Assembly: GCA_030706745.1 (NCBI GenBank)
Contig: JAUZNX010000001.1
Coordinates: forward strand, 496,001 to 560,000
DNA: 64,000 nucleotides
Source: Bacteroidota bacterium
Lineage (GTDB): Bacteria; Bacteroidota; Ignavibacteria; Palsa-1295
Reading direction: 5' to 3'
The notes beneath the pieces were generated by a model. That model was not told the origin of the DNA. It searched no databases and was given only the letters and a program-made list of their open reading frames with translations. The position numbers and the translations under genes are program-made. Below, piece by piece: positions 1 through 54,679 of the stretch (positions within the stretch are counted from its first letter, which is position 1; each line of letters begins with the position of its first letter).

Positions 1-45
1 TAGCCACATCCCCATTTTTATCCAGGATGGCACAAGGAGTGATTC

Positions 46-1268: not shown

Positions 1269-2413
1269 TGTTGTCGAACGAAGAACGCCAGCGCTATCAA
1301 CGCCACCTGACACTCGCCGAGATCGGCGAGCGCGGGCAAACACTGCTCAAAGCTGCCCGCGTGCTTGTAATCGGTGCGGGCGGACTTGGCTCCCCAGCTC
1401 TCCTTTATCTCGCGGCAGCCGGCGTTGGCACGATCGGCATTGTCGAGGATGATCGCGTCGATATTTCGAATCTCCATCGCCAGATTCTCTTTGGCGAGTC
1501 CTCCGCAGGACGCTCCAAAGCGCAAGAAGCAAAGCGGAGAGTTGTCGATGTCAATCCACACGTCACGGTTGCATTGCACGAAACTCGCTTCGCACCGGAT
1601 AACGCGCTGGATATTCTTACGGGCTACGATCTCGTGCTCGATGGATCGGATAATTTCTCGACACGCTATCTCGCCAATGACGCCTGTGTGATTCGCGGCA
1701 TCCCGCTGATCTCCGGCTCGATCGACCGCTTCGAAGGACAGGTCAGCGTATTTTCCACCCGTGGGGGTCCTTGCTATCGCTGCCTCTTCCCGGAAATCCC
1801 CGATCCATCGCTCGTGCCATCGTGCGCGGAGTCCGGTGTGTTGGGTGTACTGCCCGGGGTGATCGGAAGCCTCATGGCGACCGAGGCGATCAAGCTCCTA
1901 TGCGGCATTGGCGAGCCGCTCATCGGACGGCTGCTCCGTTACGATGCGCTTGCGATGCGTTTTGCGGAGTTTCGCATTGCTCGCGATCCCGATTGTCCGA
2001 TGTGCGGACGAGATGGGCGAAGCACGCTGTTTGAAAGTTATGAGTTCGCCTGCCAGACCGAACCGCTTGAGATCACCTTCGCGCAATTGCCGGATGATGC
2101 TTTGCTCATCGATGTCCGAGAATCGATTGAATTTCGAACGCGGCCATCGCGTGCTCAGCTAATCCCGATGAGCATATTTGCTTCACGCATCGAGGCATTG
2201 CCACGTGATCGAGCCATTGTCTTGCTTTGTGCCTCAGGCATTCGAAGCCTGACGGCAGCCAATATGCTTATCGCTCGCGGCTTCTCCAATGTTTGCAGCC
2301 TTGCCGGAGGATTGCAGCGCAATCCAGAACTTGCCATCAGCGTCGTGGCTTTGGATGGATTTTCTGCAACGTCAGCACCCGAAACTCCCCCAGCTTCAGC
2401 TCCTCAATCGTAA
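1265..2413 (+). CDS. thiF: ThiF/MoeB-type adenylyltransferase with C-terminal rhodanese domain
   Basis: 382 aa E1-like enzyme that adenylates the C-terminus of a sulfur carrier protein (ThiS or MoaD). Nucleotide-binding GAGGLG at about 38-43, DGSDNFSTR at about 126-134, zinc ligands C170/C173 and C244/C247, and the conserved catalytic-loop Cys187 in PSCAESGVLG. Residues about 270-355 form a rhodanese domain with active-site Cys322 (LLCASGIRS), so sulfur transfer and activation are fused. The thi neighbours favour ThiF over MoeB, though MoeB cannot be excluded from sequence. The last 30 or so residues are a Ser/Pro/Ala-rich tail that runs 77 bp into the convergent lipoprotein gene; the rhodanese fold itself ends before the overlap. 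Confidence 0.85.
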   Translation: MMLSNEERQRYQRHLTLAEIGERGQTLLKAARVLVIGAGGLGSPALLYLAAAGVGTIGIVEDDRVDISNLHRQILFGESSAGRSKAQEAKRRVVDVNPHVTVALHETRFAPDNALDILTGYDLVLDGSDNFSTRYLANDACVIRGIPLISGSIDRFEGQVSVFSTRGGPCYRCLFPEIPDPSLVPSCAESGVLGVLPGVIGSLMATEAIKLLCGIGEPLIGRLLRYDALAMRFAEFRIARDPDCPMCGRDGRSTLFESYEFACQTEPLEITFAQLPDDALLIDVRESIEFRTRPSRAQLIPMSIFASRIEALPRDRAIVLLCASGIRSLTAANMLIARGFSNVCSLAGGLQRNPELAISVVALDGFSATSAPETPPASAPQS

Positions 2414-2675
2414 AGTGCACCGTGTCACCTTCCTTGATCGGCTTCATAATCGAGTCGCTGATCAGGGGATAGGAATACATCATCGGGCTTAGCAGCTTCG
2501 GTACCGTCCCATGCTCCAGCGTTATGAGATGATGTTCGTAATCGATTCGCCGCACGATGCCACGGCCGCTCCCGGTGCCGGTATCAACCGGAAATAGTTT
2601 GTTACAGCCGAGCATGGCAAAAAGCAGCAGGAAGTAAGCGGTGACGTGAAATGAGTAGTACCGGACGACGCTCAT
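2337..2675 (-). CDS. CusF-like copper-binding-domain lipoprotein
   Basis: 112 aa from the ATG at 2675. Signal peptide with lipobox FAMLGC (Cys24), then a small beta-barrel-like domain of the CusF/copper-binding family: GIVRRIDYEHHLITLEHG, SPMMYSYPL, IKEGDTVHFTIEE. CusF proteins bind Cu(I) through a His and two Met near a Trp. Here one Met seems kept (PMM) while the Trp and second Met positions are changed, so metal binding is uncertain. A longer frame opens at ATG 2741, overlapping the upstream permease stop as ATGA, but those extra 22 codons come from a 7-bp repeat array and lie in front of a normal signal peptide. Last gene of the minus-strand ABC-2 exporter run; converges on and overlaps the thiF-like gene by 77 bp. 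Confidence 0.6.
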   Translation of the reverse strand: MSVVRYYSFHVTAYFLLLFAMLGCNKLFPVDTGTGSGRGIVRRIDYEHHLITLEHGTVPKLLSPMMYSYPLISDSIMKPIKEGDTVHFTIEELKLGEFRVLTLQKIHPKPRR

Positions 2676-2706
2676 GATTGCTCTACCTCGCTCTCTTGCC
2701 ATGCTA

Positions 2707-2741
2707 ATTCTCATACCCGATACTCTATTCCCCATTCTCAT
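2707..2741. repeat. Degenerate heptamer array at permease stop codon
   Basis: Five 7-bp units on the + strand (attctca, tacccga, tactcta, ttcccca, ttctcat). It covers the stop codon of the upstream permease gene (minus strand, 2738-2740) and precedes the lipoprotein start, creating an alternative in-frame start at 2741. Confidence 0.6.
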
Positions 2742-3868
2742 GCCAATTTCTTCCTAAAGCGAAGCGCACTCAATGTCAGGATCGCTGTCGCGAAGATGAA
2801 GAGCGCCAGTACCTGCGGCCAGAGTACATCCAGTCCCGCACCGCGAAGAAAAATGCCGCGGATGATTTCGAAGAAGTATCTGAGCGGCAGAAGATAACTG
2901 ATGACCTGGATCAATTTGGGCATGTTCTCGATCGGGAAGATAAATCCCGATAGGAAGTTCATCGGCAGCATCACAAAGAACATTGCGGTCATCATCGCTT
3001 GCTGTTGCGTGCTGCTGACAGTTGAGACGAAAAGCCCAATCCCAAGCGTTGTCAGAATAAACAGCACCGAAAGCCAGCCGAGCGTTATGATCGAACCGCG
3101 GACTGGGATGCCAAACAGCAGCGTCACGCCGGCCAGCGCAAGCAGAATATCGATCATGCCGATGATCGTAAATGGCGCAAGCTTTCCGACGATGATCTGC
3201 CACGTTTTGACCGGAGTCACGATGAGCTGTTCCATCGTCCCTTGCTCCTTTTCTTTCACGATCGCAAGTGCCGTCAGCACGACGGTCGCCTGCATCAGGA
3301 TCATCCCGAGCAGGCTCGGTAAAATGTAGTTGCGGCTCTTGAGATCGGGATTGTACCACACACGAATCTCCGGTTGGACCGTGATCGGCTTCAGCATTCC
3401 CAACCCTTTTCGTGCAAATCCCGACAGCATGACATCTTGGGAATATCCTGCCACGATCACTGCCGCATAGTTGAGCCCGACAGACGCCGCGTTACTCTCC
3501 GAACCATCCACAATCGCCTGGATCGGCGCCGGCTCGCCTCGTGAAAGCTTGCGTCCGAACTCCCGCGGAATTGTCAATGCAATCGAGGCTTTGCCACACA
3601 CGAGATAGTCGTCGATGTCCGACATTTTATTGACGTAGGCGACGATGGGGAAGTAACCGGAATTCTCAAATCGCGCGATGAAATCATGGCTTTGCAGCGA
3701 ATGGTCGAGATCGCATACGATCATCGGCACCGAGTTGACATCGAGATTGATCGCAAAGCCGAAAATCAGCAACTGCATGATCGGGCCAATAAAAATCAGC
3801 CGCACGATATTCGGATCACGCCGAAGTTGGAGGAATTCCTTGCGTAGAATATGAAGAATGGCTCGCAT
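2738..3868 (-). CDS. ABC-2 type transporter permease (YhhJ/YbhR-like)
   Basis: 376 aa. N-terminal helix after a KEFLQLRRDPN motif (typical start of ABC-2 exporters of the Ybh/Yhh type), a large extracytoplasmic domain of about 150 residues, then five C-terminal helices with the conserved cytoplasmic EKEQGTMEQL loop (about residue 205) and LPLRYFFEIIRGIFLRG near the end. Likely forms a heterodimer with the paralogous permease at 4467-5603, powered by the ATPase at 5715-6653. The usual HlyD-type adaptor of YbhGFSR-like exporters is not seen here. The substrate cannot be told from sequence. Confidence 0.88.
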   Translation of the reverse strand: MRAILHILRKEFLQLRRDPNIVRLIFIGPIMQLLIFGFAINLDVNSVPMIVCDLDHSLQSHDFIARFENSGYFPIVAYVNKMSDIDDYLVCGKASIALTIPREFGRKLSRGEPAPIQAIVDGSESNAASVGLNYAAVIVAGYSQDVMLSGFARKGLGMLKPITVQPEIRVWYNPDLKSRNYILPSLLGMILMQATVVLTALAIVKEKEQGTMEQLIVTPVKTWQIIVGKLAPFTIIGMIDILLALAGVTLLFGIPVRGSIITLGWLSVLFILTTLGIGLFVSTVSSTQQQAMMTAMFFVMLPMNFLSGFIFPIENMPKLIQVISYLLPLRYFFEIIRGIFLRGAGLDVLWPQVLALFIFATAILTLSALRFRKKLA

Positions 3869-3988
3869 TAATGTCTGTGCAACACTATGGTCGTACTTGA
3901 ATGCTCAACGCACTGCTCATGCAAAAGTACGATCTGTTGCCCATGACAGCAGGAACAACACAATACGAACATTCGGCGCGTCAAAAAC

Positions 3989-4009
3989 ACCACCGCCTAC
4001 TTCGGTGGT
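3989..4009 (-). terminator. Probable Rho-independent terminator
   Basis: Stem ACCACCG/CGGTGGT with a 7-nt loop; read on the minus strand the stem is followed by GTTTTTG. It would stop minus-strand transcripts coming from the 4467-5603 permease or the small ORF at 4078, making it likely that the second permease has its own promoter. Confidence 0.5.
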
Positions 4010-4077
4010 AGTTCGCAGCTTGCGAGAGAGTTCAATCCAACGGATCAGTGTCGCTGTGGATTTACAGACCAATCCCC

Positions 4078-4326
4078 TCAATTCCAATGTATCGGTTTCA
4101 CGGCATGGAAGGTCCGAAGATACTCGAAGTCGTCCATCTCCGTGTCCGACACGGCATTGCGAGCGATTGCGTCAGGTCGTGTGGCAAGACACACTGGTGT
4201 GCGACGCGGGGTGCGCAGTGAGTGCAGATGGTGTGCGCGAGCTCGCCCTTCGCTCGTATGCTCCAGCACCCAGCCGGAGACCAAACCACACACGATGGAT
4301 AATTTGATGAGAAGAAAATCTGGCAT
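4078..4326 (-). CDS. Small hypothetical protein with N-terminal hydrophobic segment
   Basis: 82 aa, not recognised. The first 20 residues (MPDFLLIKLSIVCGLVSGWV) could be a signal peptide or one membrane helix, and a CGAGG stretch lies about 8 nt before the ATG. The rest is basic and of low similarity to anything I know. It lies in the spacer between the two permeases on the same strand, upstream of a hairpin. May be spurious. Confidence 0.25.
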   Translation of the reverse strand: MPDFLLIKLSIVCGLVSGWVLEHTSEGRARAHHLHSLRTPRRTPVCLATRPDAIARNAVSDTEMDDFEYLRTFHAVKPIHWN

Positions 4327-4466
4327 AGACGCCTCGTGCTAATGTTACAAGCCCTTGTGCAACAGTCACACCATTCCGGGGATAGCGCGGAATGAGAAGA
4401 ATTGTCGGTCTCGTCGCCAGATTAGGGAAAGAATCTTTACTGCGGGTAGTAAGTACTTCCCGTGCA

Positions 4467-5603
4467 TTACAATACCTTCTTCCGCAGTCTGTTCCAGCTT
4501 ACAACGATGATCCAGGTGGCGAAGGCGAGCATGAAGAGCGTCTCTTGCCAGAAGACTTCAAGCCCCGCGCCGCGCAGCACAATGCCACGCAGGATCGAGA
4601 GGAAATAGCGCGCCGGATTGATATATGTCAGCGCCTGTATCGGCAGCGGCATGTTGCGGATCGGAAATGCAAAACCGGAGAGCATGAACGTCGGCAACAG
4701 CGAAAGCAGCGTCGCAAGCTGAAAGGCTTGTTCTTGCCGCGAGGAAACTGTCGAGACCCACAGCCCGAGTCCCAAACCACAGAGGATAAAGATCATTGCT
4801 TCGACATACAGCAATAGTAAATTGCCGCGCACAATCACATCGAACAGAACATAGCCCGTCAGGAGAATGAGCGATGTGCTGATGATCGAGATCAGCACAT
4901 AGGGCAACGTCTTGCCGGCGATGAGCTCCATTGGATGGACTGGCGAAACGATGATCTGTTCGATCGTCCCGTTTTCGCGCTCGCGCACGATCGAAAGCGA
5001 AGTCGAGATCACCGTTGCGATCATGAGAATAAACCCGATGAGTCCCGGCACCAGAAACTTCGGACTCGTCAGCTCGGGATTATACCAGATGCGTGCGCGG
5101 TAATCAATTGGCAACGCCGGTCTCCCGCCGCCCGCCCGGGCAAGCAGAGCGAGCGAAAGACGCGTCGAATAATCCTGCGCCATCTCGGCGAGATAGCCTG
5201 CGGCAGCAGTGGCATTCGTCGCGTTCGATCCATCGACCAGGACTTGGATCTTGACCGATCGGTTTGCCCGCAAATCTCGCTCGAAGTTTATCGGAATGAC
5301 GAGCACCGCGCGTGCGATCTGTCCGGTCAGGACACTATCGACCTGGTGGTCGCTTGTCAGCGCGGCGACTTTATCGAAATACTCAGTGTGGAGGAATCCA
5401 TCGGTGAGTTCGCGGCTGGTGGTCGTGCGGTCCTGATCGTAGATCGCAAGAGGGACATGCTTCACGTCGTAATTCAGCGCATAGCCAAAAAGCACGAGCA
5501 TGAAGGCCGGTACCACCAGCAGCACGCCAAGCGAGCGCTTATCCCGCCGGATTTGGCGAAACTCCTTCTTGATGATGGGCCGGATGCGATGAAGTGAGAT
5601 CAC
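4467..5603 (-). CDS. ABC-2 type transporter permease (YbhS-like)
   Basis: 378 aa, same architecture as the permease at 2738-3868: IKKEFRQIRRDKR start, one helix, large periplasmic domain, then five helices with the RERENGTIEQI loop and INPARYFLSILRGIVLRG end. Identity with the other permease is visible across the whole length, as in YbhS/YbhR pairs, which make a heterodimeric inner-membrane export channel. Lies 111 bp downstream of the ATPase gene; the gap is filled with inverted 7-bp repeat arrays. Confidence 0.88.
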   Translation of the reverse strand: MISLHRIRPIIKKEFRQIRRDKRSLGVLLVVPAFMLVLFGYALNYDVKHVPLAIYDQDRTTTSRELTDGFLHTEYFDKVAALTSDHQVDSVLTGQIARAVLVIPINFERDLRANRSVKIQVLVDGSNATNATAAAGYLAEMAQDYSTRLSLALLARAGGGRPALPIDYRARIWYNPELTSPKFLVPGLIGFILMIATVISTSLSIVRERENGTIEQIIVSPVHPMELIAGKTLPYVLISIISTSLILLTGYVLFDVIVRGNLLLLYVEAMIFILCGLGLGLWVSTVSSRQEQAFQLATLLSLLPTFMLSGFAFPIRNMPLPIQALTYINPARYFLSILRGIVLRGAGLEVFWQETLFMLAFATWIIVVSWNRLRKKVL

Positions 5604-5610
5604 TGTGTTT

Positions 5611-5720
5611 TACGTAACGCGTGGATGCGTAACGAGTAACGCGTGAAGAGTATTCTCATGCCAGGAGGTCCCGACGCGTTGAGCATCCGCGCATTACGCG
5701 TTGCTCTTTACGCGTTACTC
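5611..5720. repeat. Pair of inverted heptamer arrays between ATPase and permease genes
   Basis: Left arm 5611-5650 and right arm 5690-5720 both consist of 7-bp units of the ACGCGTAA type. The arms are reverse complements: 5634-5650 matches the complement of 5704-5720 with one mismatch, so RNA could fold into a long stem. The right arm carries the ATPase stop codon (5715-5717). Confidence 0.7.
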
Positions 5721-6653
5721 ACCCACTGCCTGCCGGTCCAGCAAATGCAGAAACACATCTTCGAGCGATGGCACAATCCGTTCGATGCGAATGAGCGGCA
5801 AATTGTGCTTCGCAAGAACTTCGCCAATCACTTGCTCCGCGTCGAGCTCGGGCTTCACACTCACGTGCAACAATGTGCCGAAGACAGATGTCTCTTCGAT
5901 CCTCTTATCATCCGAGAGCGCGCTCATGGCTTCGATCACATGCTCGGTCTCGACTTCCATCACCGGGTTCGTGATGTACTGCGTCTTCAACTCCTGCGGA
6001 CTACCGCCGGCGATAATGCGTCCGGCGTGAATCAGCATTAAGCGGTTGCAATACTCAGCCTCATCGAGATAGTGGGTGGTAACGAAGACTGTCGTCCCGC
6101 CCTCGGCAAGTTGGCGAATCAAATCCCAAAATCTTCGGCGCATGATCGGATCGACGCCGCCGGTCGGCTCGTCCAGAAAAACAATCTCCGGTTCATGCAG
6201 CATCGCGCAGGCAAGAGCAAGGCGTTGTTTAAACCCGCCAGGTAATTCGGTCGGAAGACTGTTCTCGCGGCCCTCGAGCCCGGCAGTCTGGATGGCCCAC
6301 GCGTGCTTCTTCGCGATGACTTCCTTGCTTAAGCCGTAGATGCCGCCCCAGAAGCGGATATTCTCAGCCACCGTGAGATCGCCATAGAGCGAAAACTTCT
6401 GCGACATATATCCGATGCGTTCTTTGACACGCTCCGGTTCTTTGTTGATGTCATATCCAGCGACGGTGGCAGTGCCGCTCGTCGACTGCAAAAGTCCCGT
6501 CAGCATCCGGATCGTCGTCGATTTGCCGGAGCCATTCGCGCCCAGGAATCCGAAGATCTCACCTTTGCGCACTTCGAACGAGACATCATCGACCGCCGTG
6601 AAGCTGCCAAAGCGTTTGGTGAGCGAGTGGGATTGGATGGAGAGATCGGGCAT
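5715..6653 (-). CDS. ABC transporter ATP-binding protein (YbhF-like half)
   Basis: 312 aa ATPase. Walker A GANGSGKST (about 39-47), signature LPGGFKQRLALACAM in the place of LSGGQ, Walker B IVFLDEPTGGVD, and H-loop VFVTTHYLDEAEYC, followed by the C-terminal domain usual in drug or lipid exporters of the CcmA/YadG type. It powers the two ABC-2 permeases downstream on the same strand. It starts 30 bp after the small membrane protein gene at 6683-6859. Confidence 0.92.
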   Translation of the reverse strand: MPDLSIQSHSLTKRFGSFTAVDDVSFEVRKGEIFGFLGANGSGKSTTIRMLTGLLQSTSGTATVAGYDINKEPERVKERIGYMSQKFSLYGDLTVAENIRFWGGIYGLSKEVIAKKHAWAIQTAGLEGRENSLPTELPGGFKQRLALACAMLHEPEIVFLDEPTGGVDPIMRRRFWDLIRQLAEGGTTVFVTTHYLDEAEYCNRLMLIHAGRIIAGGSPQELKTQYITNPVMEVETEHVIEAMSALSDDKRIEETSVFGTLLHVSVKPELDAEQVIGEVLAKHNLPLIRIERIVPSLEDVFLHLLDRQAVGE

Positions 6654-6682
6654 GATGCGGGAAAAACATCACAAATGTGGCT

Positions 6683-6859
6683 TTAATTATTCACCTCTTT
6701 ATGCTTGCCCCGCGCCTTCCGCCAAATTATTAGCGTCCAAATAATTATGACGAGAATAAAGTAATGTGGATAGGAATAGATTAAGCCTTCACGTCTTACA
6801 AAGACTTCTACTACAAACGTTAGGGAACAGACGAGGAAGAACAATATGGCGGATCTCAT
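6683..6859 (-). CDS. 58-aa two-helix membrane protein (EGLIYSYP family)
   Basis: Short ORF read directly from the minus strand: ATG 6857-6859, TAA 6683-6685. Two hydrophobic segments (about 4-20 and 31-47) flank a conserved loop EVFVRREGLIYSYPHYF, and a basic tail follows (WRKARGKHKE). A second, decayed copy lies at 23985-24147, where the loop reads EVFVRNEGLIYSYPQYF, and a distant look-alike at 22008-22175. The conservation of the loop between the two copies argues that this is a real gene. Sits between the hybrid kinase (stop 6895) and the ABC ATPase (start 6653). Function unknown. Confidence 0.65.
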   Translation of the reverse strand: MRSAILFFLVCSLTFVVEVFVRREGLIYSYPHYFILVIIIWTLIIWRKARGKHKEVNN

Positions 6860-6872
6860 CGCGTTTCAGCCA

Positions 6873-6900
6873 AGTTCCCAATTCACAATTGGCACTACAG
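6873..6900. repeat. Short heptamer array at kinase stop codon
   Basis: Four units (agttccc, aattcac, aattggc, actacag) covering the stop codon of the hybrid kinase gene (6895-6897). Short, but of the same kind as the other arrays. Confidence 0.4.
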
Positions 6901-9870
6901 CTTCGCCCGTAGCTCCTCGAAGGCTCTGGCGCAATCGGTTTGGACGGCTACGAACTCACGCTTGACGCGGTCGGGGTCTTTCGCATCGGCGCAGAGCTGC
7001 TCGATGGACTCGGCGAATCCTGCGGTGTGTTTCATGCCCATGAACTTGAGGTGTGGTTTCATGGCATGGATCTGGCGCTTGGTCGCGGCAAAATCGTTTG
7101 CTTCGAGCGCCACCCGAATGCTTTCGAGTTGCGGCGGCACACCATCCAGGAACATCTTGATGTATTTCTTCAATTGATTTTCGTCCCCGCCTGTGATGTC
7201 GCGGAGCGTGGAGAGATCTGTCAGAGCAGGCCCAGCGGCCGGTTGCATGTCGTTCATACCGTTACGCATTGGAGTTGGTTGAGCGCCCCCGCTCAACGTA
7301 ACTGCCTCCCGAGCCTCATCCGCATGGCCGTTTGCGATTGGTGCAGCCGCGGCGGGTGAGGGTACGGAGGATCGCTTGAAATATTTTACGAGCACCCGAA
7401 GTAGCTCGTCTCGTTTGAACGGCTTCGGCACATAATCGTTCATGCCGGCCGCAAAACAGCGGTCGATTTCACTCTTAATAACGCTCGCCGTCAACGCGAT
7501 GATCGGCACATCTTTCTTCGACCGTGGCAATCGGGCTCGGATGTGCTTTGTTGCTTCGATGCCGTCCATCTCGGGCATTTGTACGTCCATGAGTACAAGG
7601 TCGAATCCAAAGCGCTCGACGAGCGCAATGGCTTCGCGCCCATTGTTTGCGATTTCAAGCGCGACTTCGCCGATCACATTTCGCAACGTATCGGCAAGCA
7701 CGATCTGGTTGTATTCGTTGTCCTCGACGAGCAAAATGTGAATGCCGCGCAATAGCGCAGGATCGATGACTTCGGCTGCGCGTGTGGCTCGCGCCTCGCC
7801 ATTCAATGCTTCTTCACTCGTAACATCATAGGGTGTCGTGAAGGCAAACTCGGAGCCATGGCCTAACTCGCTCGTAACCCCGATTGTCCCACCCTGCAAT
7901 TCGACCAGCGTACGGGAAATCGTAAGGCCCAGTCCGGTCCCGCCATATTTTCGAGTCGTCTCCGAATCGGCTTGCGAGAAGGAATCGAAGATGGCGTGCT
8001 GTTTCTCTTTGGAGATACCGATGCCGGTATCCCGAACGGCAAAGCGAACGGTCATTCGATTATCGAGCCCCACGGCGCTCGCACTGGCGGTCAGCGTCAC
8101 TGTCCCGTGATCGGTGAACTTGATGGCGTTGCCCATGAGATTGACCAGGATCTGGTTGAGTCTTGTGCTATCGCCAATCACAACCTCAGGTGCTGATTCA
8201 TCGATTTCGGCCACGAGCTTTAGGCCCTTCGCCTCAGCTTTGAAGCGCATCATTTCCAGCACATGCCCCGTTACGTCGCGCAAGCGGAACGGCACGCGTT
8301 CGAACTCCATTTTGCCAGCCTGCAGCTTCGAAAGATCGAGAATATCATTGATGATGACGAGTAGATTATCCGCCGATGCCGCGATCGCTTCGAGGTAATC
8401 GCGCTGCTTTTGCACGAGATCAGTTTCGAGCAACAGACGGGTCATGCCGAGCACGGCATTCATTGGCGTGCGAATCTCATGGCTCATGTTTGCCAGGAAT
8501 TGCTTCTCGAGCAATTCGCTTGCCTCGGCGCGGTCCTTGGCGCGTGCCAGTTCTTCGTTGGCCCGTTGTTTTTGGCGGTCGCTTCGATAAATCAGGATCG
8601 AGATGATCGAGAGTGCAATCGCGACGAGGATAATCGCATAGGTGATCCATCGCTGACGCGATAGCTCTTCGCGCTGCGTGGAAAGCTCTGCCTCTTTCTT
8701 GGAGGATTGGTATTTCCCCTCCATGTCGGCCAGAATTCGACTTTTATCGCCATTGAAGAGAGAGTCGTGAAGTGCCGCACCCTTATCGAGGAATGCGTAC
8801 GCTTGTTTGAAATCCCCAACTTGCGCGTAGGCCTTCGCGAGGCTGAGATACCGGTCATAGAGTCCGCGCTTTGCCCCGGCCCGTTCATCGATTTCGCGCG
8901 CAAGATTCAAGTAGTAAAACGCGCTGTCATTCCGACGAACAGAAAGGAACAGATTGCCGAGCGAGGCATACGCACCGGCTGTATAGGTCGAACTCGCATC
9001 CGAATTCTCATGCAGTGAAATCGACTGACGATAATAATAGAGCGCGCTATCGAGCGTGCCTTTGCGTTCGAAGACGGCACCGATATTCCCAAGCACGCGG
9101 GCTCGCTGGACGCGGTCGTCAAGCTTCTCATAGAGATCGCCACTGCGGCGAAAATTCGAAAGCGCAGTATCCAAACCGCCAGCCATGCTATTGCGACCAG
9201 CATTCGAATCTGCATAGTTCAGGCCGATATTATTATAGACCGCAGCTTGTGTACGAAGATCGCCCGTGTGTCTGGAAAAGGCCAGTGCTCGTCCGAGATA
9301 ATTCAACGCGCTGCTGCGCTCTTTCTGATCGATGGCGAGACATCCAAGGCTATTATATGCAAGTCCGATAGCGACGGAATCGCGCGAATGAACTGCAAGA
9401 TCGAGCGCGCGTAGATGAAAGTCCAGCGCTTCCCGAAAGTCTCCGATCTCCATGTCATTCCAACCCAACTGCGAATAGGTCCGGACCCACAGATCGGTAT
9501 CTTTCGCTTCCTCCGCTTGCTTCATTGCCATCATCAGCCGCGGTCGCGCGCTATCGTAGCGGCCTTGTTGCGAGAATCGCTTTCCCATGAAGAGATCGAA
9601 GCGGGCCATCCGGGCCTGATCGCGCGCGGCACGCGCATACTCATAGGATTGCGTCGCATATCCAAGTGTGGCAGAAGTATCCGTTTCCTCGAGAGCGACT
9701 GACAGGGCGCGAAGAATATCACTCTTCTCCGCATCACTTCGCGCATATGCAAGTCGTGCGTGAAGGCTATCGAATAGCTTCTGCTCCTGTGCGCGGCTCG
9801 TCGAGACGAGAAACAGGAGTAAACAAATCAATGACAACTGACGAATGACAAATGGCAAATATCGTCTCAT
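6895..9870 (-). CDS. Hybrid sensor histidine kinase: TPR sensor, HisKA, HATPase, receiver, HPt
   Basis: 991 aa from the ATG at 9870 (an open frame reaches 9969 but lacks support). Signal peptide (LSLICLLLFLVSTSRAQ), periplasmic TPR array of roughly 350 residues, one membrane helix (about 409-428), coiled linker, HisKA with phospho-acceptor His464 (FLANMSHEIRTP), HATPase with N-box Asn581, receiver domain with Asp762 (LMDVQMP), and a C-terminal HPt domain with His935 in IHAMKPHLKFMG, where the usual LKG reads MKP. All residues for a four-step phosphorelay are present. It follows the response regulator gene on the same strand by 76 bp, a gap made largely of heptamer repeats. Ligand unknown; TPR sensors of this type often read protein-protein contacts. 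Confidence 0.9.
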   Translation of the reverse strand: MRRYLPFVIRQLSLICLLLFLVSTSRAQEQKLFDSLHARLAYARSDAEKSDILRALSVALEETDTSATLGYATQSYEYARAARDQARMARFDLFMGKRFSQQGRYDSARPRLMMAMKQAEEAKDTDLWVRTYSQLGWNDMEIGDFREALDFHLRALDLAVHSRDSVAIGLAYNSLGCLAIDQKERSSALNYLGRALAFSRHTGDLRTQAAVYNNIGLNYADSNAGRNSMAGGLDTALSNFRRSGDLYEKLDDRVQRARVLGNIGAVFERKGTLDSALYYYRQSISLHENSDASSTYTAGAYASLGNLFLSVRRNDSAFYYLNLAREIDERAGAKRGLYDRYLSLAKAYAQVGDFKQAYAFLDKGAALHDSLFNGDKSRILADMEGKYQSSKKEAELSTQREELSRQRWITYAIILVAIALSIISILIYRSDRQKQRANEELARAKDRAEASELLEKQFLANMSHEIRTPMNAVLGMTRLLLETDLVQKQRDYLEAIAASADNLLVIINDILDLSKLQAGKMEFERVPFRLRDVTGHVLEMMRFKAEAKGLKLVAEIDESAPEVVIGDSTRLNQILVNLMGNAIKFTDHGTVTLTASASAVGLDNRMTVRFAVRDTGIGISKEKQHAIFDSFSQADSETTRKYGGTGLGLTISRTLVELQGGTIGVTSELGHGSEFAFTTPYDVTSEEALNGEARATRAAEVIDPALLRGIHILLVEDNEYNQIVLADTLRNVIGEVALEIANNGREAIALVERFGFDLVLMDVQMPEMDGIEATKHIRARLPRSKKDVPIIALTASVIKSEIDRCFAAGMNDYVPKPFKRDELLRVLVKYFKRSSVPSPAAAAPIANGHADEAREAVTLSGGAQPTPMRNGMNDMQPAAGPALTDLSTLRDITGGDENQLKKYIKMFLDGVPPQLESIRVALEANDFAATKRQIHAMKPHLKFMGMKHTAGFAESIEQLCADAKDPDRVKREFVAVQTDCARAFEELRAKL
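9829..9863. repeat. Heptamer array encoding the kinase signal peptide
   Basis: Five 7-bp units on the + strand (caatgac, aactgac, gaatgac, aaatggc, aaatatc). Read on the minus strand they encode residues about 3-14 of the kinase (RYLPFVIRQLSL), that is the start of its signal peptide. Confidence 0.7.
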
Positions 9871-9876
9871 GCGGTC

Positions 9877-9932
9877 ATGCTCATATCCCATCATACACCC
9901 CAATATTCTCATTCCTCTGATGTCATTCGCAA
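9877..9932. repeat. Heptamer array between response regulator and kinase genes
   Basis: About eight units of a TNTNCCA-like heptamer (atgctca, tatccca, tcataca, ccccaat, attctca, ttcctct, gatgtca, ttcgcaa). A different sequence family from the array 14 bp to its left. Fills the gap before the kinase start codon. Confidence 0.6.
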
Positions 9933-9946
9933 TTCCGGGCCGCGAA

Positions 9947-10444
9947 TCAGTGAAGCCGCAAATACACAATATAAATTACGAGCGCGAGCACCAGCACCCA
10001 GAAGACAACATTCATCCCTTTTTGGAAGCCATGCGATTTTTTGAGTGTCCGGAGATTCGAAAGTTGCCGTACTGCGAGTTCCAACTTGTGAAATGCCGTT
10101 TCGCCTTTGACGATATAATCGTAGGCACCGTATTTAATCGTATTCGAAGCGACCTCCATACGGTCCTGCGCGCTCATAAAGATCACGGGCAATTCCGGAA
10201 ACCGTTCTTTAAGCTTCGAAAGGATCTGAATCCCGTTCATCGCATCCGGACGTACGGAATCCAGTTGATAATCGAGGACCACGATGTCCGGCTGATCCAC
10301 GAGTTGCGCGAGCGCATCCTCGCCGGTATTATACGTCACGAACTGCGTGCCGGGGAATTTCCGCGAAAGGGTATCGCGTACCATTTCACAGAGCGTGACA
10401 TCATCGTCGATAATTGCAATGGAAAGACTGGTCTCCGAGGCCAT
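9947..10444 (-). CDS. Response regulator receiver protein with C-terminal membrane anchor
   Basis: 165 aa. Receiver domain at 1-125 with the acidic pocket IIDDD (11-15), phospho-acceptor Asp58 (VVLDYQ), a Ser/Thr switch (FMSAQ) and Lys113. There is no DNA-binding or enzymatic output domain: residues 126-143 are a basic linker and 145-162 a single strong membrane helix (VVFWVLVLALVIYIVYL). Co-directional with and directly upstream of the hybrid kinase, so it is likely its phosphate acceptor or a sink held at the membrane. Membrane-tethered stand-alone receivers are uncommon. Confidence 0.85.
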   Translation of the reverse strand: MASETSLSIAIIDDDVTLCEMVRDTLSRKFPGTQFVTYNTGEDALAQLVDQPDIVVLDYQLDSVRPDAMNGIQILSKLKERFPELPVIFMSAQDRMEVASNTIKYGAYDYIVKGETAFHKLELAVRQLSNLRTLKKSHGFQKGMNVVFWVLVLALVIYIVYLRLH

Positions 10445-50022: not shown

Positions 50023-50064
50023 CAGGGACAACGGGCTAACAGTGAGGGCCGAAGTGCGCATCAC

Positions 50065-50403
50065 TCAGCGGATATAGAAGATACCATCACGAAGATTATT
50101 ATGCTCATCGAGCGATCGCAGAATTCTTCGCAACATTTCACCAATCGGCAATTGCGGACAGGTCAAGATACCAAAGTGGTGATATCCTTCTTCCATATAC
50201 TACTTGCAATGTAGTCTCGTAAAATCACCGCGATTGAACGTAACGAACGCTCGCTCTAATCGGACCGCCAAGGCCAATTGATCGGGATCGTCGGCTCCCG
50301 ATGTTCCAACCTCCTGAATGCGAATGGCATCGATTCCTCTCGCACGCAATGCTTTGGCGAGATCGCCTTGGATATCCTCATCGAGCAACAGCCGGTGGCT
50401 CAC
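50065..50403 (-). pseudogene. DUF5615 PIN-like toxin interrupted by an in-frame amber codon
   Basis: GTG start at 50403 overlapping the DUF433 stop. The first 67 codons match the N-terminal part of DUF5615 proteins (LLLDEDIQGDLAKALRARGI, AFVTFNRGDFTRLHCK). A TAG at 50200-50202 follows, and the same frame continues for 44 codons with the family's normal C-terminus (YMEEGYHHFGILTCPQLPIG, EMLRRILRSLDEH) to TGA 50065-50067. The total of 113 codons is the usual length. So one nonsense codon splits the gene; it may be inactive or read through. Confidence 0.75.
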
Positions 50404-50702
50404 GACGGCCGTTTCGCGGCTCGTGCCATCGCGTCCCAGCGATCGACATCATTATTCTCAGCGATGTTAGCATCGATCTCTGACTTGTGATCGAAGTAAT
50501 ACGAAAGTGCCGAAAACACAAGACCAAAATTGAGATACGGCAGCGCGATCAGAATTTCATCGACCGACATGCCCATATTGAAATACGTTGCAATACTCCG
50601 CACCGGCGTGCGCGTACCCTCGACGATTGGCACGCCGCTCAGAATGCGCGCGTCCGACGTAATGTGCGGATAACCAACTGCCTGCTGTGTAACCATCTGC
50701 AT
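50400..50702 (-). CDS. DUF433 family antitoxin
   Basis: 100 aa. Contains the DUF433 core: PHITSDARILSGVPIVEGTR, TPVRSIATYFNMGMSVDEIL and LPYLNFGLVFSALSYYFDHK, a small winged-helix-like DNA-binding fold. DUF433 and DUF5615 genes form a known toxin-antitoxin-like pair; here they overlap by 4 bp (GTGA). Upstream lies a 45-bp sequence shared with the second TA operon. Confidence 0.82.
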   Translation of the reverse strand: MQMVTQQAVGYPHITSDARILSGVPIVEGTRTPVRSIATYFNMGMSVDEILIALPYLNFGLVFSALSYYFDHKSEIDANIAENNDVDRWDAMARAAKRPS

Positions 50703-50709
50703 ATTCTCA

Positions 50710-50754
50710 CAACCGGCCCCGCGAGCATTCTGTGCCCAAAGCCGCCACCGGCCC
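50710..50754. repeat. Sequence shared upstream of both TA operons, copy 1
   Basis: Begins caaccggccccgcgagc and ends gccgccaccggccc, matching 51423-51466 with several substitutions and small gaps. It lies just upstream of the DUF433 gene (start 50702). Candidate shared promoter/operator or small mobile repeat. Confidence 0.55.
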
Positions 50755-50790
50755 TAAACAAGGGTCATCAGCGCATGGCAAGCAACAGGG

Positions 50791-51177
50791 TTATGACCAG
50801 CGGATTACAGCAAGCCTTTCGACCTCCCCGAAATGCTTATCATTCGTAACGAGCGGCAAGCGGTGCCGAATTGCTGTTGCGGCGATCCACATATCGTTCT
50901 CCGGAATTGGTTTGCCCTTGCTCCGAAGTGTTGCTTTGATTTGACCGTACATCTCTGCTACCTCCAGATCACTGCTAACGAGCGAAACCAAATCGAGAAA
51001 CGTGAGAAGCCTCCGACGATTCTCAGTGACCCGCGCCGATTTATGAACGCCAAAGAATAGCTCACCGACGACGGTCATCGGCACCAGAATTTCATCGAAG
51101 CCAAGCCGAGGGAGATCAAGCTTGCCATTCAGGATTTGAACGACTGCGTTCGAATCCAGTAAGGCCTTACCATTCAT
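50791..51177 (-). CDS. PIN-domain ribonuclease toxin, VapC family
   Basis: 128 aa from the ATG at 51177 (the frame is open to 51237, overlapping the antitoxin more). PIN-domain acidic residues: Asp in ALLDSNAVVQIL, Glu in MTVVGELFFGV, Asp in IPENDMWIAATAIRH and Asp in LPLVTNDKHF. VapC toxins are Mg-dependent RNases acting on tRNA or rRNA. Start overlaps the antitoxin stop by 11 bp. Confidence 0.87.
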   Translation of the reverse strand: MNGKALLDSNAVVQILNGKLDLPRLGFDEILVPMTVVGELFFGVHKSARVTENRRRLLTFLDLVSLVSSDLEVAEMYGQIKATLRSKGKPIPENDMWIAATAIRHRLPLVTNDKHFGEVERLAVIRWS

Positions 51178-51397
51178 CGAGATCGATATTTTCGCAACCG
51201 GCTTCGATTGCCGAAATGATTTCTTTAGCATCTTCATCCGGGAGCGTACCGGTAAGGTGCTGAATCTCTGACCAGGGTGTGCCTTTCGGAGTCTCCGATC
51301 TCATTGCCCGAGCGCTCGCAAGTAGCCGCAATTGCTCAGCCGCGCTGAGCTTGTCGATCTCCTCGTAAAGCTGATGTTGAATTTCGGATTGTGACAT
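51167..51397 (-). CDS. Antitoxin of the VapC pair
   Basis: 76 aa from ATG 51397. N-terminal half helical (QHQLYEEIDKLSAAEQLRLL), C-terminal half acidic (LPDEDAKEIISAIEAGCENI, DLDEW), as expected for an antitoxin whose acidic tail wraps the PIN toxin. No recognised DNA-binding family; called from its size, charge and overlap with vapC. Confidence 0.7.
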   Translation of the reverse strand: MSQSEIQHQLYEEIDKLSAAEQLRLLASARAMRSETPKGTPWSEIQHLTGTLPDEDAKEIISAIEAGCENIDLDEW

Positions 51398-51422
51398 AAC
51401 AATACTACCTCCCAACTCTTAG

Positions 51423-51466
51423 CAACCGCCCCCGCGCGCGTTCTGTGCCCAGCCGCCGCCGGGCCC
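51423..51466. repeat. Sequence shared upstream of both TA operons, copy 2
   Basis: Begins caaccgcccccgcgcgcg and ends gccgccgccgggccc; see copy 1 at 50710-50754. Lies 26 bp upstream of the antitoxin start. Confidence 0.55.
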
Positions 51467-51659
51467 GTGCTGCCAAAGGTGTGGAGCATGCTTCAGCTTG
51501 CGCGGATTAGCGAAGCAACGATGCAGTCGCACACCGGCCGCTCAGGTCGCGTGTGGGAGTGGTTGCTCGCGGACCCACTTGGGCGCGGCAGCGACAATGT
51601 GGCGAAGGCACGAAGTACCCGCACAGCCCAGGGTGGAGCACCAGCGACTTCAGATGATA

Positions 51660-52379
51660 TTACATCCAACTTGGTTTGTTGCCTGCAATGATCTTCGAAC
51701 CTGTCTTACAGATGGATAAGAATGGGCATTCGCGACAAAGGGGCTGCCAGGGGTTTGGCCGACAAATCTGCATCGAGAAATCAAGAAACGCTAATGTGAA
51801 CCGTCTCGCGTCTTTGGGCGGAAGAATCATCGCGAAGAAATCCGCAGCTTCATCCACCGTTACTTTTTGTCCGATTAATCTACTTGCAGCGCGCTGAACA
51901 TTCGAATCCGCAATCGCCACTGCTTGATTTGCATGAAGACATAAGAAGGCAGATGCAGCGTAGCGACCAACACCAGGAAGGGAAAGCAAAACGTCAAAAT
52001 CTTGGGGCACATCCGCCGAGTGTTCATCGACTAGTATCCTCGCCATCTCAACGAGTGTATTCGCACGAGAGTAAATGCCCAGCGGCCTTATGATTTCGAG
52101 AACTTGTTCTGGAGTAGATTTTGCGAGCGATTGAACGGAAGGAAATCTTGTCACAAAGGCTTCGTAGACGCGATGAGCCGCTTTTGCCGTCGTGCGCTGC
52201 AACAGCACTTCGGCTATTAGGCCATGGAATTTATTGTTCGCGTCGCGCCACTTAAATGACTGGTAAAACTCTTGGCCCCAAGCAAGTAGATTTCGGCGAA
52301 TACTATACCTCCTCCTTATCTGTCTCGCGACCTTGAAAAGAAGATCGGTTCTTTTTTGTTTTGCTGTGATTGCCGCCAA
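51660..52379 (-). CDS. HhH-GPD DNA glycosylase, MIG/MutY-type T:G mismatch repair
   Basis: 239 aa. HhH motif LLSLPGVGRYAASAFLCL followed by AIADSNVQR with the catalytic Asp. The position that is Lys in endonuclease III is Tyr here (GVGRYAAS), as in MIG thymine-DNA glycosylases and MutY. C-terminal Fe-S ligands appear as C-x8-C-x2-C-x5-C (ICRPNPWQPLCRECPFLSIC). It is the third gene of a cytosine-methyltransferase R-M set, where deamination of 5mC would create T:G mismatches. Too short for MutY: the C-terminal NUDIX-like domain is missing. Confidence 0.78.
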   Translation of the reverse strand: MAAITAKQKRTDLLFKVARQIRRRYSIRRNLLAWGQEFYQSFKWRDANNKFHGLIAEVLLQRTTAKAAHRVYEAFVTRFPSVQSLAKSTPEQVLEIIRPLGIYSRANTLVEMARILVDEHSADVPQDFDVLLSLPGVGRYAASAFLCLHANQAVAIADSNVQRAASRLIGQKVTVDEAADFFAMILPPKDARRFTLAFLDFSMQICRPNPWQPLCRECPFLSICKTGSKIIAGNKPSWM

Positions 52380-52412
52380 TGTGATTAACAGTCAATATCC
52401 ACATACTCACAA

Positions 52413-53165
52413 TTAACGATTCAAGATCGGCCTTATCTCATTACCCACCGCTTCGGCAACTTCGAGCAGTTCATCGTAGGTTTGGTCGTCTCCTATCTTA
52501 CTCCAGAACTGTCGACCAACTAGCAAATCCTGACCTATCTCCAGAAACTGTCGCGCGTAATTGTTCATATAGGGAGCATCATCGCCATTCGGATTGTAGG
52601 CAGCCGCGGCGTATGCTTCCGCGCTGTGACCCTTTCTAAGAGCCGAGATCAGCAGTATGTCGTGCTTCATTTTCTTGCACTGACCTTTGTTAGGATCAGG
52701 TGTCTTCATTTCGAAATAGAGCTCAGAGTCGTCGTGCCGAAGGATAAAGAGATCGCTAATGATGGATCGATCGACTCCGCCAGGATCTTGAACCCCGAGA
52801 ACACGGGCGATGTCGTTCGCACGATTTGGAATCCGACGTGGCACACCGTGATCCATAAGTTCGGTGATGGCAACAATATCAGCTTCCGCAGCAGGCTGAA
52901 TGCGGCCCGTCACAGAGTACCCGAGAGTCGCTGCTCTGTGGAACTGGGAAGCAACAAGGCGTGCCATCTCTTGAAACCATGAGCCAGAACGAGTAGAAAA
53001 TGAACGTTCAGAGAACTTCACCTCAGAGAGTATTGGAAGAAGACGAACGTGAAACGGCTTTTGTCGAGCGGTGGCTCGGTTGTCTTGGACGAAACGTGTC
53101 ACCTGTCTCAGTAGGTAATCGTGAATTGCCTGTCGAGTCGTTTCAGTAAGTGGCATTGTCGTCAA
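52413..53165 (-). CDS. Type II restriction endonuclease, TdeIII-like
   Basis: 250 aa. Resembles the TdeIII family (GGNCC specificity) as I recall it: PFHVRLLPILSEVKFSERSF with FSTRSGSWFQEMARLVAS, then a nuclease core ISDLFILRHDDSELYFEMKT (Asp ... Glu-x-Lys, PD-(D/E)xK type) and YNPNGDDAPYMNNYARQFLE, FWSKIGDDQTYDELLEVAEA. It starts 8 bp after the methyltransferase stop. That it is the cognate endonuclease is well supported by position; the GGNCC specificity is only a family inference. Confidence 0.7.
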   Translation of the reverse strand: MTTMPLTETTRQAIHDYLLRQVTRFVQDNRATARQKPFHVRLLPILSEVKFSERSFSTRSGSWFQEMARLVASQFHRAATLGYSVTGRIQPAAEADIVAITELMDHGVPRRIPNRANDIARVLGVQDPGGVDRSIISDLFILRHDDSELYFEMKTPDPNKGQCKKMKHDILLISALRKGHSAEAYAAAAYNPNGDDAPYMNNYARQFLEIGQDLLVGRQFWSKIGDDQTYDELLEVAEAVGNEIRPILNR

Positions 53166-53172
53166 TCAATTA

Positions 53173-54306
53173 CTAATTCGAGAACGCAAGCGGTATCATG
53201 CGATGGTGTACCGACGTACCCCGTGCTCTTTTAACATGCACCTTCGCGGTGCCTGTAGCAACGCTAATGAGCATCTGTCCAATTGCTTTGCCAAGACCAA
53301 CGGGAACAGCGTTGCCGATCTGTTTATAAGCTTGTGTTGATTCCCCAGCAAATTTCCAGGAATCCGGAAATTGCTGAATCCTCGCATATTCGCTAACACT
53401 CAAAGGGCGTGGTGGCCGTGCCGTGGGATGTGTTAGCATTGTACTCTTATGAATGGGACTTGTGACCAGGGTCGGAGATGGCTGGTCGTATGAAAGTCTC
53501 CGATAAAAACCTACCTTACCGCCTCCGGATTCAAACGCACCGCCCATGGCCTTAGCTACAATGTCCTTGGGCAGGGATTTCCAGTTGCCGCCTTCCGGTA
53601 CGAGCTTCAGTAGCATGCTGCGTTCTTTGCTGTACTTCGCACCTTCTCCGGGATTGGCTTCCAGATCGCTGATCGCATTACGTAACGTCTGCCAGCGGTA
53701 ATCCGGATTTTGGTGTGACTGAAAGTGCGTGGGATTAGGAATAAAAATCGGCTCGTTGTCGCGACTTCCAATTACGATAAGACGCTCACGAAATTGCGGC
53801 ACCCCATAATGAACTGCATCTACTATGCTATGCGTCAATTTGTAACCAAGCTTTTCGAGCTCCTCCATGATAATCTCGAACGCAGTGGTAGGAAACCCGT
53901 TCTCCCGTATCACGGGAGCAGAAAGAATGCCCTTGACATTCTCCATCACAAAGAAGCGGGGACGTACTTCATCAATGACGCGCTTGAATTCCATGAAGAG
54001 GCTGCCACGCGGGTCGTTAAGGCTACCTCGAAGTCCGGCTGTGCTAAATGGCTGGCATGGCGGCCCTCCCGCGACCAAGAATACGTCTTTGGGGCGCACA
54101 CCACCGGCTATGCAGAGATCCTTCCCGCTTATATCGCGAATGTCTCCCAAGATCATTTTGCGCTTATTGAGCTTTGCAGTCTCAGCGCAATACTTATCAT
54201 AATCTTGAGAAATGCGCGTGCTGATCCCCGCCTCTTCCAGCCCAAGGTCGAGACCCATAGCTCCTGAAAATAGCGAGATCGAATTGAACTCTGTTACGCG
54301 AATCAT
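53173..54306 (-). CDS. DNA (cytosine-5) methyltransferase of a type II R-M system
   Basis: 377 aa from ATG 54306 (frame open to 54330). All key C5-MTase motifs: I SLFSGAMGLDLGLEEAG, IV VAGGPPCQPFSTAGLRG with the catalytic Cys, VI RFFVMENVKG, VIII PQFRERLIVIGSRD, IX-like RLSYDQPSPTLVTSP, and X YKQIGNAVPVGLGKAIG. Leads a minus-strand operon MTase-REase-glycosylase with gaps of 7 and 33 bp. It protects the host recognition sites from the downstream endonuclease. Confidence 0.95.
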   Translation of the reverse strand: MIRVTEFNSISLFSGAMGLDLGLEEAGISTRISQDYDKYCAETAKLNKRKMILGDIRDISGKDLCIAGGVRPKDVFLVAGGPPCQPFSTAGLRGSLNDPRGSLFMEFKRVIDEVRPRFFVMENVKGILSAPVIRENGFPTTAFEIIMEELEKLGYKLTHSIVDAVHYGVPQFRERLIVIGSRDNEPIFIPNPTHFQSHQNPDYRWQTLRNAISDLEANPGEGAKYSKERSMLLKLVPEGGNWKSLPKDIVAKAMGGAFESGGGKVGFYRRLSYDQPSPTLVTSPIHKSTMLTHPTARPPRPLSVSEYARIQQFPDSWKFAGESTQAYKQIGNAVPVGLGKAIGQMLISVATGTAKVHVKRARGTSVHHRMIPLAFSN

Positions 54307-54423
54307 ACTGGCACTTTCACTTGGAATCAATAATCCACAAGGACTGCTCCTAGGTTCAGAAAGTTGTTAACATTCTGAAAAAATAAAACGATTGAGTCGT
54401 TCAGCGAGGCTCATAATGCGACG

Positions 54424-54580
54424 TCAATCGCGGTCATTCCCTTCGGCGTCTTTGAAGAGCACGGAGTAATCGCGCTTCGAATTGAAAGGGGGCGGCCCCA
54501 AGATAAGTCAGATCGACCGTCTCATCCTTGATATACTCGCGAAGGATGTCGAGGTTATCGCCGAAATAGAGTTTGTTCAT
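54424..54580 (-). pseudogene. Frameshifted N-terminal fragment of an N6-adenine/N4-cytosine DNA methyltransferase
   Basis: The ATG at 54580 starts MNKLYFGDNLDILREYIKDE, TVDLTYL, a typical opening of site-specific amino-MTases, where DPPF should follow. A shift at about 54493-54503 breaks the motif (LGAA), and the next frame continues PPFNSKRDYSVLFKDAEGND to a TGA at 54424. The remaining 300 or more residues are missing. A dead relic next to a live R-M operon. Confidence 0.7.
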
Positions 54581-54614
54581 CGGATAATGATTACCACAAT
54601 CCAACAGTGTGATT

Positions 54615-54650
54615 CCCGCGAACGCGGGACTGTGGAGTACAACTCCACAG
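54615..54650. terminator. Double hairpin after the MCE gene
   Basis: Two adjacent perfect palindromes: CCCGCG-AA-CGCGGG (54615-54628), within the common 'GATTCCCGCGnnnGCGGGA' intergenic repeat pattern, and CTGTGGAGT-ACA-ACTCCACAG (54630-54650). They follow the stop of the minus-strand MCE gene by 30 bp. Likely transcription stop or mRNA end structure. Confidence 0.55.
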
Positions 54651-54679
54651 TACACGAAGGGCGAGATGGTGCCCGAGTC

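Follow-up and report, generated by a model that had tools for sequence, protein, structure and literature searches.

5-Methylcytosine (m5C) is mutagenic, and the locus described here bears on the question of why some restriction-modification (R-M) systems producing this base possess a repair gene and others do not. The locus lies in a stretch of 64,000 nucleotides from a Bacteroidota bacterium of the class Ignavibacteria (assembly GCA_030706745.1, contig JAUZNX010000001.1, positions 496,001 to 560,000; the whole stretch is hereafter called the window), and it consists of three packed genes on the minus strand, at positions 51660-54306, transcribed in the order methyltransferase (M), endonuclease (R), glycosylase. 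On the basis of sequence comparisons, we consider it quite likely that these genes represent an acquired type II m5C R-M operon with its own repair of T:G mismatches by a MIG-type glycosylase, and that known parts are combined in it as a mosaic. The presence of such a repair enzyme within a type II m5C operon had been proposed in a first-pass annotation of the window, and this proposal is supported by sequence, specificity residues, phylogenetic trees, fold and genomic linkage.

The gene order and the coordinates suggested by that annotation were confirmed by both the Pfam matches, which are far beyond chance and well above the cut-offs, and the reading frames, all three of which are intact and encode the catalytic motifs; the coordinates given there correspond to the ATG of M (54306) and to the stop codon of the glycosylase gene (51660). 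The C5-cytosine DNA methyltransferase is encoded at 53173-54306 (minus strand; 377 amino acids from an ATG, or 385 from an upstream TTG at 54330) and matches PF00145 with 236 bits (E 8e-70). The TdeIII-family type II restriction endonuclease is encoded at 52413-53165 (minus strand; 250 amino acids from a TTG, with an alternative ATG at 53156) and matches PF09520 with 145 bits (E 3e-42). The predicted MIG-type HhH-GPD mismatch glycosylase is encoded at 51660-52379 (minus strand; 239 amino acids from a TTG) and matches PF00730 with 65 bits (E 7e-18). The intergenic gaps are as short as 7 nucleotides between M and R (with the TTG start of the latter) and 33 nucleotides between R and the glycosylase gene.

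The glycosylase exhibits the features of the HhH-GPD fold, with Glu57, a catalytic Asp (D158) and a four-Cys cluster (C206/C215/C218/C224), the Asp and the four Cys being invariant in the alignment. It lacks the catalytic Lys that endonuclease III carries in the HhH motif: the corresponding residue is Tyr140, in the motif LPGVGRY, compared with the Lys of LRGVGRK in the separate Nth-like protein of the host (L002). The first-pass annotation was therefore right about the substitution, which it had taken as a mark of a MIG enzyme. However, in a scan of one genome per species, in which the best 80 of 295 relatives were retained and a duplicate locus (L081) was dropped, Tyr occupies this column in 78 of the 79 distinct loci, 71 of which are MutY-like by other residues; thus, the Tyr does not discriminate MIG from MutY, and this argument had to be abandoned.

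More informative are the overall similarity and the residues involved in the choice of the base. The best match among the sequences of the Protein Data Bank (PDB) is 1kea (102.5 bits vs 85 for the best MutY), whose title describes a possible G-T mismatch repair enzyme, a thermostable thymine-DNA glycosylase. The structural model of the operon glycosylase (predicted local distance difference test score, pLDDT, 92.2) also has 1kea as its closest fold, with a root-mean-square deviation of 1.6 over 216 columns and 27% identity in the fold alignment; the margin in Foldseek is small, MutY cores being about tenfold behind (E 4.4e-12 vs 3.5e-13). The passages of PMC2714593 concerning base choice contrast Val45/Gln182 of MutY with Ala50/Leu187 of Mig.MthI, and the operon protein carries the Mig.MthI pair, as Ala65 and Leu196. 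According to the same passages, Mig.MthI changed at both positions is turned from T/G towards A/G, and the E. coli MutY V45A/Q182L double mutant did not gain T/G activity (PMC2714593); therefore, the Ala/Leu pair suggests, and does not prove, activity on T:G. Taken with the lack of the C-terminal domain of MutY and with the relatives described below, these data support the assignment of the operon glycosylase to the MIG type, as far as this can be judged from its sequence.

The relatives of the glycosylase were then considered together with their genomic context. Among the best 80 of 295, eight loci carry Ala at the position of Val45 (with Leu or Trp at the second position) and 71 carry Val or Ile, mostly with Gln, most of the latter proteins being at least 345 amino acids long. 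A C5 methyltransferase was present in the fetched flank of 3/8 Ala-type loci vs 0/71 Val/Ile-type loci; the corresponding Fisher p of 0.0007 is a guide only, because the loci are related and the flanks are at most 5 kb and unequal in length. The C5 profile used for this count included partners of the counted loci, and the same three loci were found by BLAST with the operon M alone. Similarly, seven of the eight plasmid glycosylase loci opened (H1-H5, H8, H14 and H18, out of 90 matching records) lie near a profile-checked DNA cytosine methyltransferase. Some glycosylase match was found in all 296 genomes of the phylum search, in which the operon protein scored 348.6 bits and the next one 199.4, a difference inflated by the fact that the query (A6) contains the operon glycosylase. 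Other homologues with an open frame shorter than 260 amino acids were, among the phylum matches listed, L240 and L241; in each case the locus includes a C5 methyltransferase, and the two specificity positions are occupied by Ala and by an aromatic residue, in this order. In the trees constructed with FastTree and IQ-TREE, the operon glycosylase groups with these MIG-type proteins, including Mig.Mth, and in the IQ-TREE phylogeny it joins L240, its nearest relative in the tree, with a support of 100/97.

The surroundings of some of these relatives are worth describing in their own right. In L240 (G207:C1:2662000-2672000), positions 4658-9802, a 239-amino-acid MIG-type glycosylase adjoins a DrmMII-like C5 methyltransferase and DrmB, in a DISARM-like arrangement. 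In L084, positions 3649-10388, on a contig labelled Euryarchaeota, a C5 methyltransferase is followed by a MIG-type glycosylase near an MzaC-like protein (548 bits). In L241 (G030:C35:245000-255000), positions 2-4888, the glycosylase, of the MIG type, comes after a C5 methyltransferase that is truncated by the end of the locus; the same locus holds a 434-amino-acid protein without a family and one of 743 amino acids, which is HATPase-like and matches REase_II. Four cyanobacterial loci (L075, L107, L141 and L144) show the MIG residues (Ala, Leu), and their fetched flanks are devoid of C5 methyltransferases; FastTree places them outside the 17-row group embedding the operon glycosylase and Mig.Mth, and inside a 21-row group. 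No MIG relatives were found in the viral contigs searched.

As far as the methyltransferase is concerned, motifs I, IV (GGPPCQPF), VI (ENV), VIII, IX and X are present in this order, and the protein is 37-45% identical to seven SinI-linked methyltransferases, six of plasmids and one of the Streptococcus phage YS162. The target-recognition region, between motifs VIII and IX, is also like that of these seven enzymes, with a GGNWKSLP..GGGK(T/V)GF.RR..PSPTL(V/L)TSP-like pattern; the specificity of the SinI-linked enzymes rests on the family of the partner endonuclease. The plasmid relatives of M share at most 46% identity with it, and 12 were opened out of at least 5000 matching records. The neighbouring endonuclease is SinI-type in seven of them (L321-L324, L327, L328 and L346) and Eco47II-type in two (L342 and L345), all nine being confirmed by Pfam. 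The other three lack a recognised endonuclease: L341 starts at the start of the record, L343 is unannotated, with frames listed and not scanned, and L344 has a 203-amino-acid neighbour without a Pfam match.

SinI recognises GGWCC and Eco47II GGNCC, the latter being also the site of TdeIII and MjaII. A second and independent indication comes from the structural model of R, whose closest fold is that of EcoO109I (Z 11.5 over 188 residues; next best enzyme 7.2), an endonuclease reported, in the part of PMC7337904 dealing with it, to recognise and cut RGGNCCY and to resemble AvaII (GGWCC). Because of these two supports, the partners of the relatives of M and the fold of R, we infer a GG.CC core with one central base, so that the operon site is probably GG(N/W)CC, with N and W both possible at the centre. 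Hence, of the GGNCC site predicted by the first-pass annotation, the core holds and the central N is one of two options, GGWCC being the other. Methylation of GGNCC to m5C is mentioned for other bacteria in passages of PMC4675945 and PMC9465063. The observed/expected ratio of GGNCC is 0.951 in the host (380 kb), 0.890 in the congener G001 (140 kb) and 0.908 in G004 (260 kb); no special depletion exists in the host and, therefore, avoidance says nothing on the site. The absence of GGWCC from the operon (0 vs 2.9 expected) was also considered as a clue and dropped, since it is not significant (P 0.06); GGWCC is lacking in 0/113 other tiles of the window and in 1/133 genome tiles (among 15 low-G+C tiles), and seven SinI-type units show no such lack.

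The endonuclease matches PF09520 over its full length (residues 8-241 on profile positions 6-242; cut-off 27.2 bits) and can be regarded as a divergent member of the family, its 145 bits being compared with up to 335 in relatives, with the invariant residues of the family kept. The AlphaFold2 model (ma1a7a577e63d, pLDDT 89.5) places D138 on one strand (131-142) and E152-x-K154 where the following strand (148-153) ends, as in a putative PD-(D/E)XK catalytic core; searching the sequences of the PDB with the R profile gave chance-level matches only. PF09520 is present in 5/41 near relatives (host included), 29/395 genomes of the phylum and 73/391 genomes of the class. We fetched 85 R loci, corresponding to every listed place, and found R in 84, the locus excluded (L242, G433:C209) having given none. 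A methyltransferase of the SPPY type lies within 2.5 kb of R in 76 of the 84, none of which has a C5 methyltransferase or an HhH glycosylase there. The other eight comprise L068, with a C5 methyltransferase only, the operon, with both a C5 methyltransferase and a glycosylase, and six loci without a partner, kept in the count, of which three are at contig ends and three are fragments. The SPPY-type profile was built from 25 partner genes of the same loci, and in the first batch the motif was seen directly in 27/32; two of these enzymes were scanned and both match PF01555 (N6_N4_Mtase). The SPPY motif is a sign of N4-methylcytosine (m4C), and because of this motif and of a site without adenine, the SPPY enzymes presumably make m4C.

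Outside these loci, no R relative was found in viral contigs, in genome contigs (two-row alignment) or in plasmids when the operon R or that of L066 was used, and the matches elsewhere were one phage record and one Vibrio plasmid record (query, the R of L042), the latter without a methyltransferase in the annotated flank, whose gene table is incomplete. In the phage (YS162, OP662530.1; L325/L329), a C5 methyltransferase is flanked on one side by a SinI-type endonuclease and on the other by one of the TdeIII type, the two being encoded on the opposite strand, as though they shared a single methyltransferase; antibiotic-resistance genes are annotated nearby.

The operon is thus a mosaic: the usual partner of the R family is of the N4/N6 type, and here an m5C enzyme takes its place with a T:G repair gene alongside. 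What is new is the combination of a TdeIII-family R, a SinI/Eco47II-like m5C methyltransferase and a MIG-type glycosylase, as against the N4/N6-type partner that R enzymes of this family usually have. The product of that partner, if it is m4C, would not deaminate to thymine. In the operon, the SinI/Eco47II-like M would put m5C in the GG(N/W)CC site and R, judging from its family and fold, would cut unmethylated sites. Deamination of m5C would leave a T:G mismatch, from which the glycosylase would remove the thymine, as its residues, the tree and the genomic linkage suggest, and the abasic site would be handed on to the base excision repair of the host.

One can tentatively speculate, although we would not regard it as the likelier outcome, that the repair gene goes with the chemical nature of the mark rather than with the endonuclease or the site, a T:G glycosylase having been fixed when a TdeIII-type system swapped its N4-type methyltransferase for an m5C one. 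If this were true, MIG would be an accessory that generally accompanies m5C marks in defence systems (including DISARM) and can be exchanged for Vsr, and the TdeIII-family operons, with either chemistry at a single site, would represent a natural experiment on the value of MIG. Within a single endonuclease family, with probably one site core, two kinds of methyltransferase occur and the repair gene was seen only with the m5C kind, so that what m5C costs becomes testable with the site held constant. The association of MIG with DISARM and Mza components, if true in more genomes, would broaden the range of systems in which it acts as an accessory.

The distribution of T:G repair genes was also analysed in the genomes related to the host. 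The host genome (3.81 Mb, 99.5% complete) harbours a single C5 methyltransferase, as far as was found, and no Vsr was found in it. In ten other genomes of the same genus or family, the best match to the operon glycosylase is a MutY-like protein with an open frame of 308-412 amino acids (246 in G006, where it is at a contig end). In the host and in these ten genomes alike, the MutY-like protein carries Thr or Ala where MutY has Val45, and Glu where it has Gln182 (Glu in 10/10 of the related genomes). Full-length C5 methyltransferases are present in G001-G004 and G007, and G006 gave a weak partial match; Vsr, sought in seven of the ten genomes, was found in G001, G004 and G007. Hence, a full-length C5 enzyme is present in six genomes (host included), and four of these possess a T:G repair gene, one MIG and three Vsr.

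Two further observations concern these genes. In the lineage MutY-like proteins (L347-L356 and L004), neither the Val nor the Gln found in E. coli MutY is present. The Vsr genes are on the same contig as a C5 methyltransferase, within about 250 nucleotides in G004:C13 and G007:C7 and about 3.5 kb apart in G001:C175, as if Vsr replaced MIG in these three genomes.

A number of data weigh against the interpretation of the locus as an m5C operon with its own T:G repair. Concerning the glycosylase, 6/10 MutY-like proteins of the related genomes likewise have an Ala corresponding to Val45; Ala65 alone is therefore not diagnostic and carries little weight, and the second residue, which is Leu in none of the ten and Glu in all of them, is the discriminating one in this lineage. 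The Cys cluster is spaced C-x8-C-x2-C-x5-C, the first gap being x5 or x6 in the other 15 aligned rows, and in the tree the operon glycosylase and L240 are both long branches, for which the program issued a warning, with a support of only 79/65 for the clade of 16. Moreover, 5/8 Ala-type genome loci have no C5 methyltransferase within reach. Concerning the endonuclease, EcoO109I was first also in Foldseek, but with an E of 0.002 and TM-scores of only 0.34-0.44. Among the three pairings of a TdeIII-type endonuclease with a C5 methyltransferase (the operon, phage YS162 and L068), only the operon has MIG: in the phage, the annotation of the 12 kb opened includes neither a glycosylase nor Vsr, three hypothetical proteins of this region having no Pfam match and two small ones lying outside that scan. 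We did not count L068 as evidence, since only a fragment of its R (72 amino acids) is present, at the end of a contig, and its C5 methyltransferase is unlike the operon M. Lastly, G002 and G003 have C5 methyltransferases and neither MIG nor Vsr was detected in them, and no glycosylase is annotated in the flanks shown (incomplete gene table) for the opened plasmid operons of the SinI and Eco47II types; the repair gene is therefore common but not required.

Different explanations of the glycosylase gene have to be weighed against these data. It might encode a divergent MutY-like adenine glycosylase, present in the operon by chance and acting on A:G or A:8-oxoguanine. Indeed, the best NCBIfam model is the mutY equivalog, plasmid relatives of the protein are often annotated mutY, MutY likewise has the Tyr, the catalytic Glu and the catalytic Asp, and the Ala shared with six of the ten lineage proteins fits this idea as well. 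However, the 141.5 bits obtained are half of the cut-off of this model (286.5), which is not passed, and the protein ends soon after the Cys cluster, without the C-terminal 8-oxoguanine domain of MutY (239 amino acids vs mostly at least 345 in the Val/Ile-type proteins). It has Leu where the MutY-like protein of the host and those of all ten related genomes have Glu, the host already carries that longer MutY-like protein (L004, 310 amino acids), and the best match in both sequence and fold is a thymine-DNA glycosylase; a MutY-like function appears very improbable to us.

We regard as scarcely more than a marginal candidate the idea that the glycosylase is a second restriction effector, attacking modified or mismatched bases of invading DNA and not mending the decay of m5C in the host. 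Restriction glycosylases do exist, as the portion of PMC10273834 devoted to R.PabI documents, a 5-hydroxymethylcytosine glycosylase is reported in PMC13160076 to give phage defence, and MIG-type proteins adjoin several defence systems, including DISARM and Mza components. Against this stand the closeness of this HhH enzyme to Mig.Mth, the endonuclease already present in the operon and the linkage of the glycosylase, which tracks the C5 methyltransferase rather than a particular effector. It would also be surprising if the operon were decayed or silent, its genes being without a present function, a possibility suggested by a frameshifted methyltransferase remnant at 54434-54580 and by the lack of an evident strong ribosome-binding site before the TTG of the glycosylase gene; the three intact frames with their catalytic motifs and the tight gene packing speak against such a decay.

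The proposed T:G-repairing m5C operon can be compared with several known systems. The gene of Mig.MthI is linked to the C5 R-M system MthTI, whose site is GGCC. Like the operon glycosylase, Mig.MthI (1kea) is an HhH-GPD protein with the Glu, Tyr and Asp, the four-Cys cluster and the Ala and Leu at the specificity positions, as described in the relevant part of PMC2714593. The operon glycosylase differs in being 27% identical to it and in its first Cys spacing (x8), and the operon in its TdeIII-family R and its likely site, GG(N/W)CC and not GGCC. With the TdeIII/MjaII family, R shares the full-length match and the invariant residues; it is divergent, however, and is accompanied by a C5 methyltransferase, whereas the SPPY-type partner is found in 76/84 loci. 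M resembles the SinI- and Eco47II-type m5C systems in its identity to the SinI-linked enzymes (37-45%, seven cases), in the matching target-recognition region and in the linkage of two relatives to Eco47II-type endonucleases; unlike these systems, the operon has a TdeIII-family endonuclease and an added glycosylase, and the related methyltransferase of YS162 is accompanied by both SinI- and TdeIII-type endonucleases. Vsr, too, is linked to C5 methyltransferases, and the mending of T:G mismatches originating from m5C deamination is proposed for it in the section of PMC6116569 that deals with this enzyme. The operon glycosylase is a protein unrelated to Vsr, which occurs in the congeners G001 and G004 and in the family member G007 and not, as far as was found, in the host. 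Among the titles listed by our literature searches, at most 20 for each, none describes such an operon; in the papers searched, the whole word TdeIII was not found, and the terms glycosylase, DISARM, mismatch and cytosine methyltransferase never occurred together in one paper. MjaII was found in a single paper, PMC4752239, whose passages name the cloned endonuclease and do not give its site.

The genomic setting bears on how the operon reached this genome. It is embedded, together with two toxin-antitoxin-like modules, in a variable interval (50023-54679) bounded by an FtsW/RodA-like gene and an MlaD-like one; similarity to the congener G001 at the DNA level ends at both borders of this interval, which is 4.66 kb long in the host, vs 2.9 kb of unrelated cargo in G001. 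PF09520 is absent from the six same-genus genomes searched (6/6), and the G+C content of the operon is lower than that of the host genome sample of 380 kb (0.498 vs 0.536). Because of these last two findings, we infer that the operon was horizontally acquired, and this forms part of the interpretation that we favour.

The interval also contains the two modules and the remnant mentioned above. The modules, at 50200-51415 on the minus strand, are formed by a DUF5615 protein with a DUF433 protein and by a PIN-domain protein with a short partner, and the PIN module is flanked by a 29-nucleotide repeat, 90% alike, at 50710 and 51423. The remnant, also on the minus strand and just upstream of the operon, has no Pfam match; it presumably resembles the N-terminus of another methyltransferase, of the N6/N4 type.

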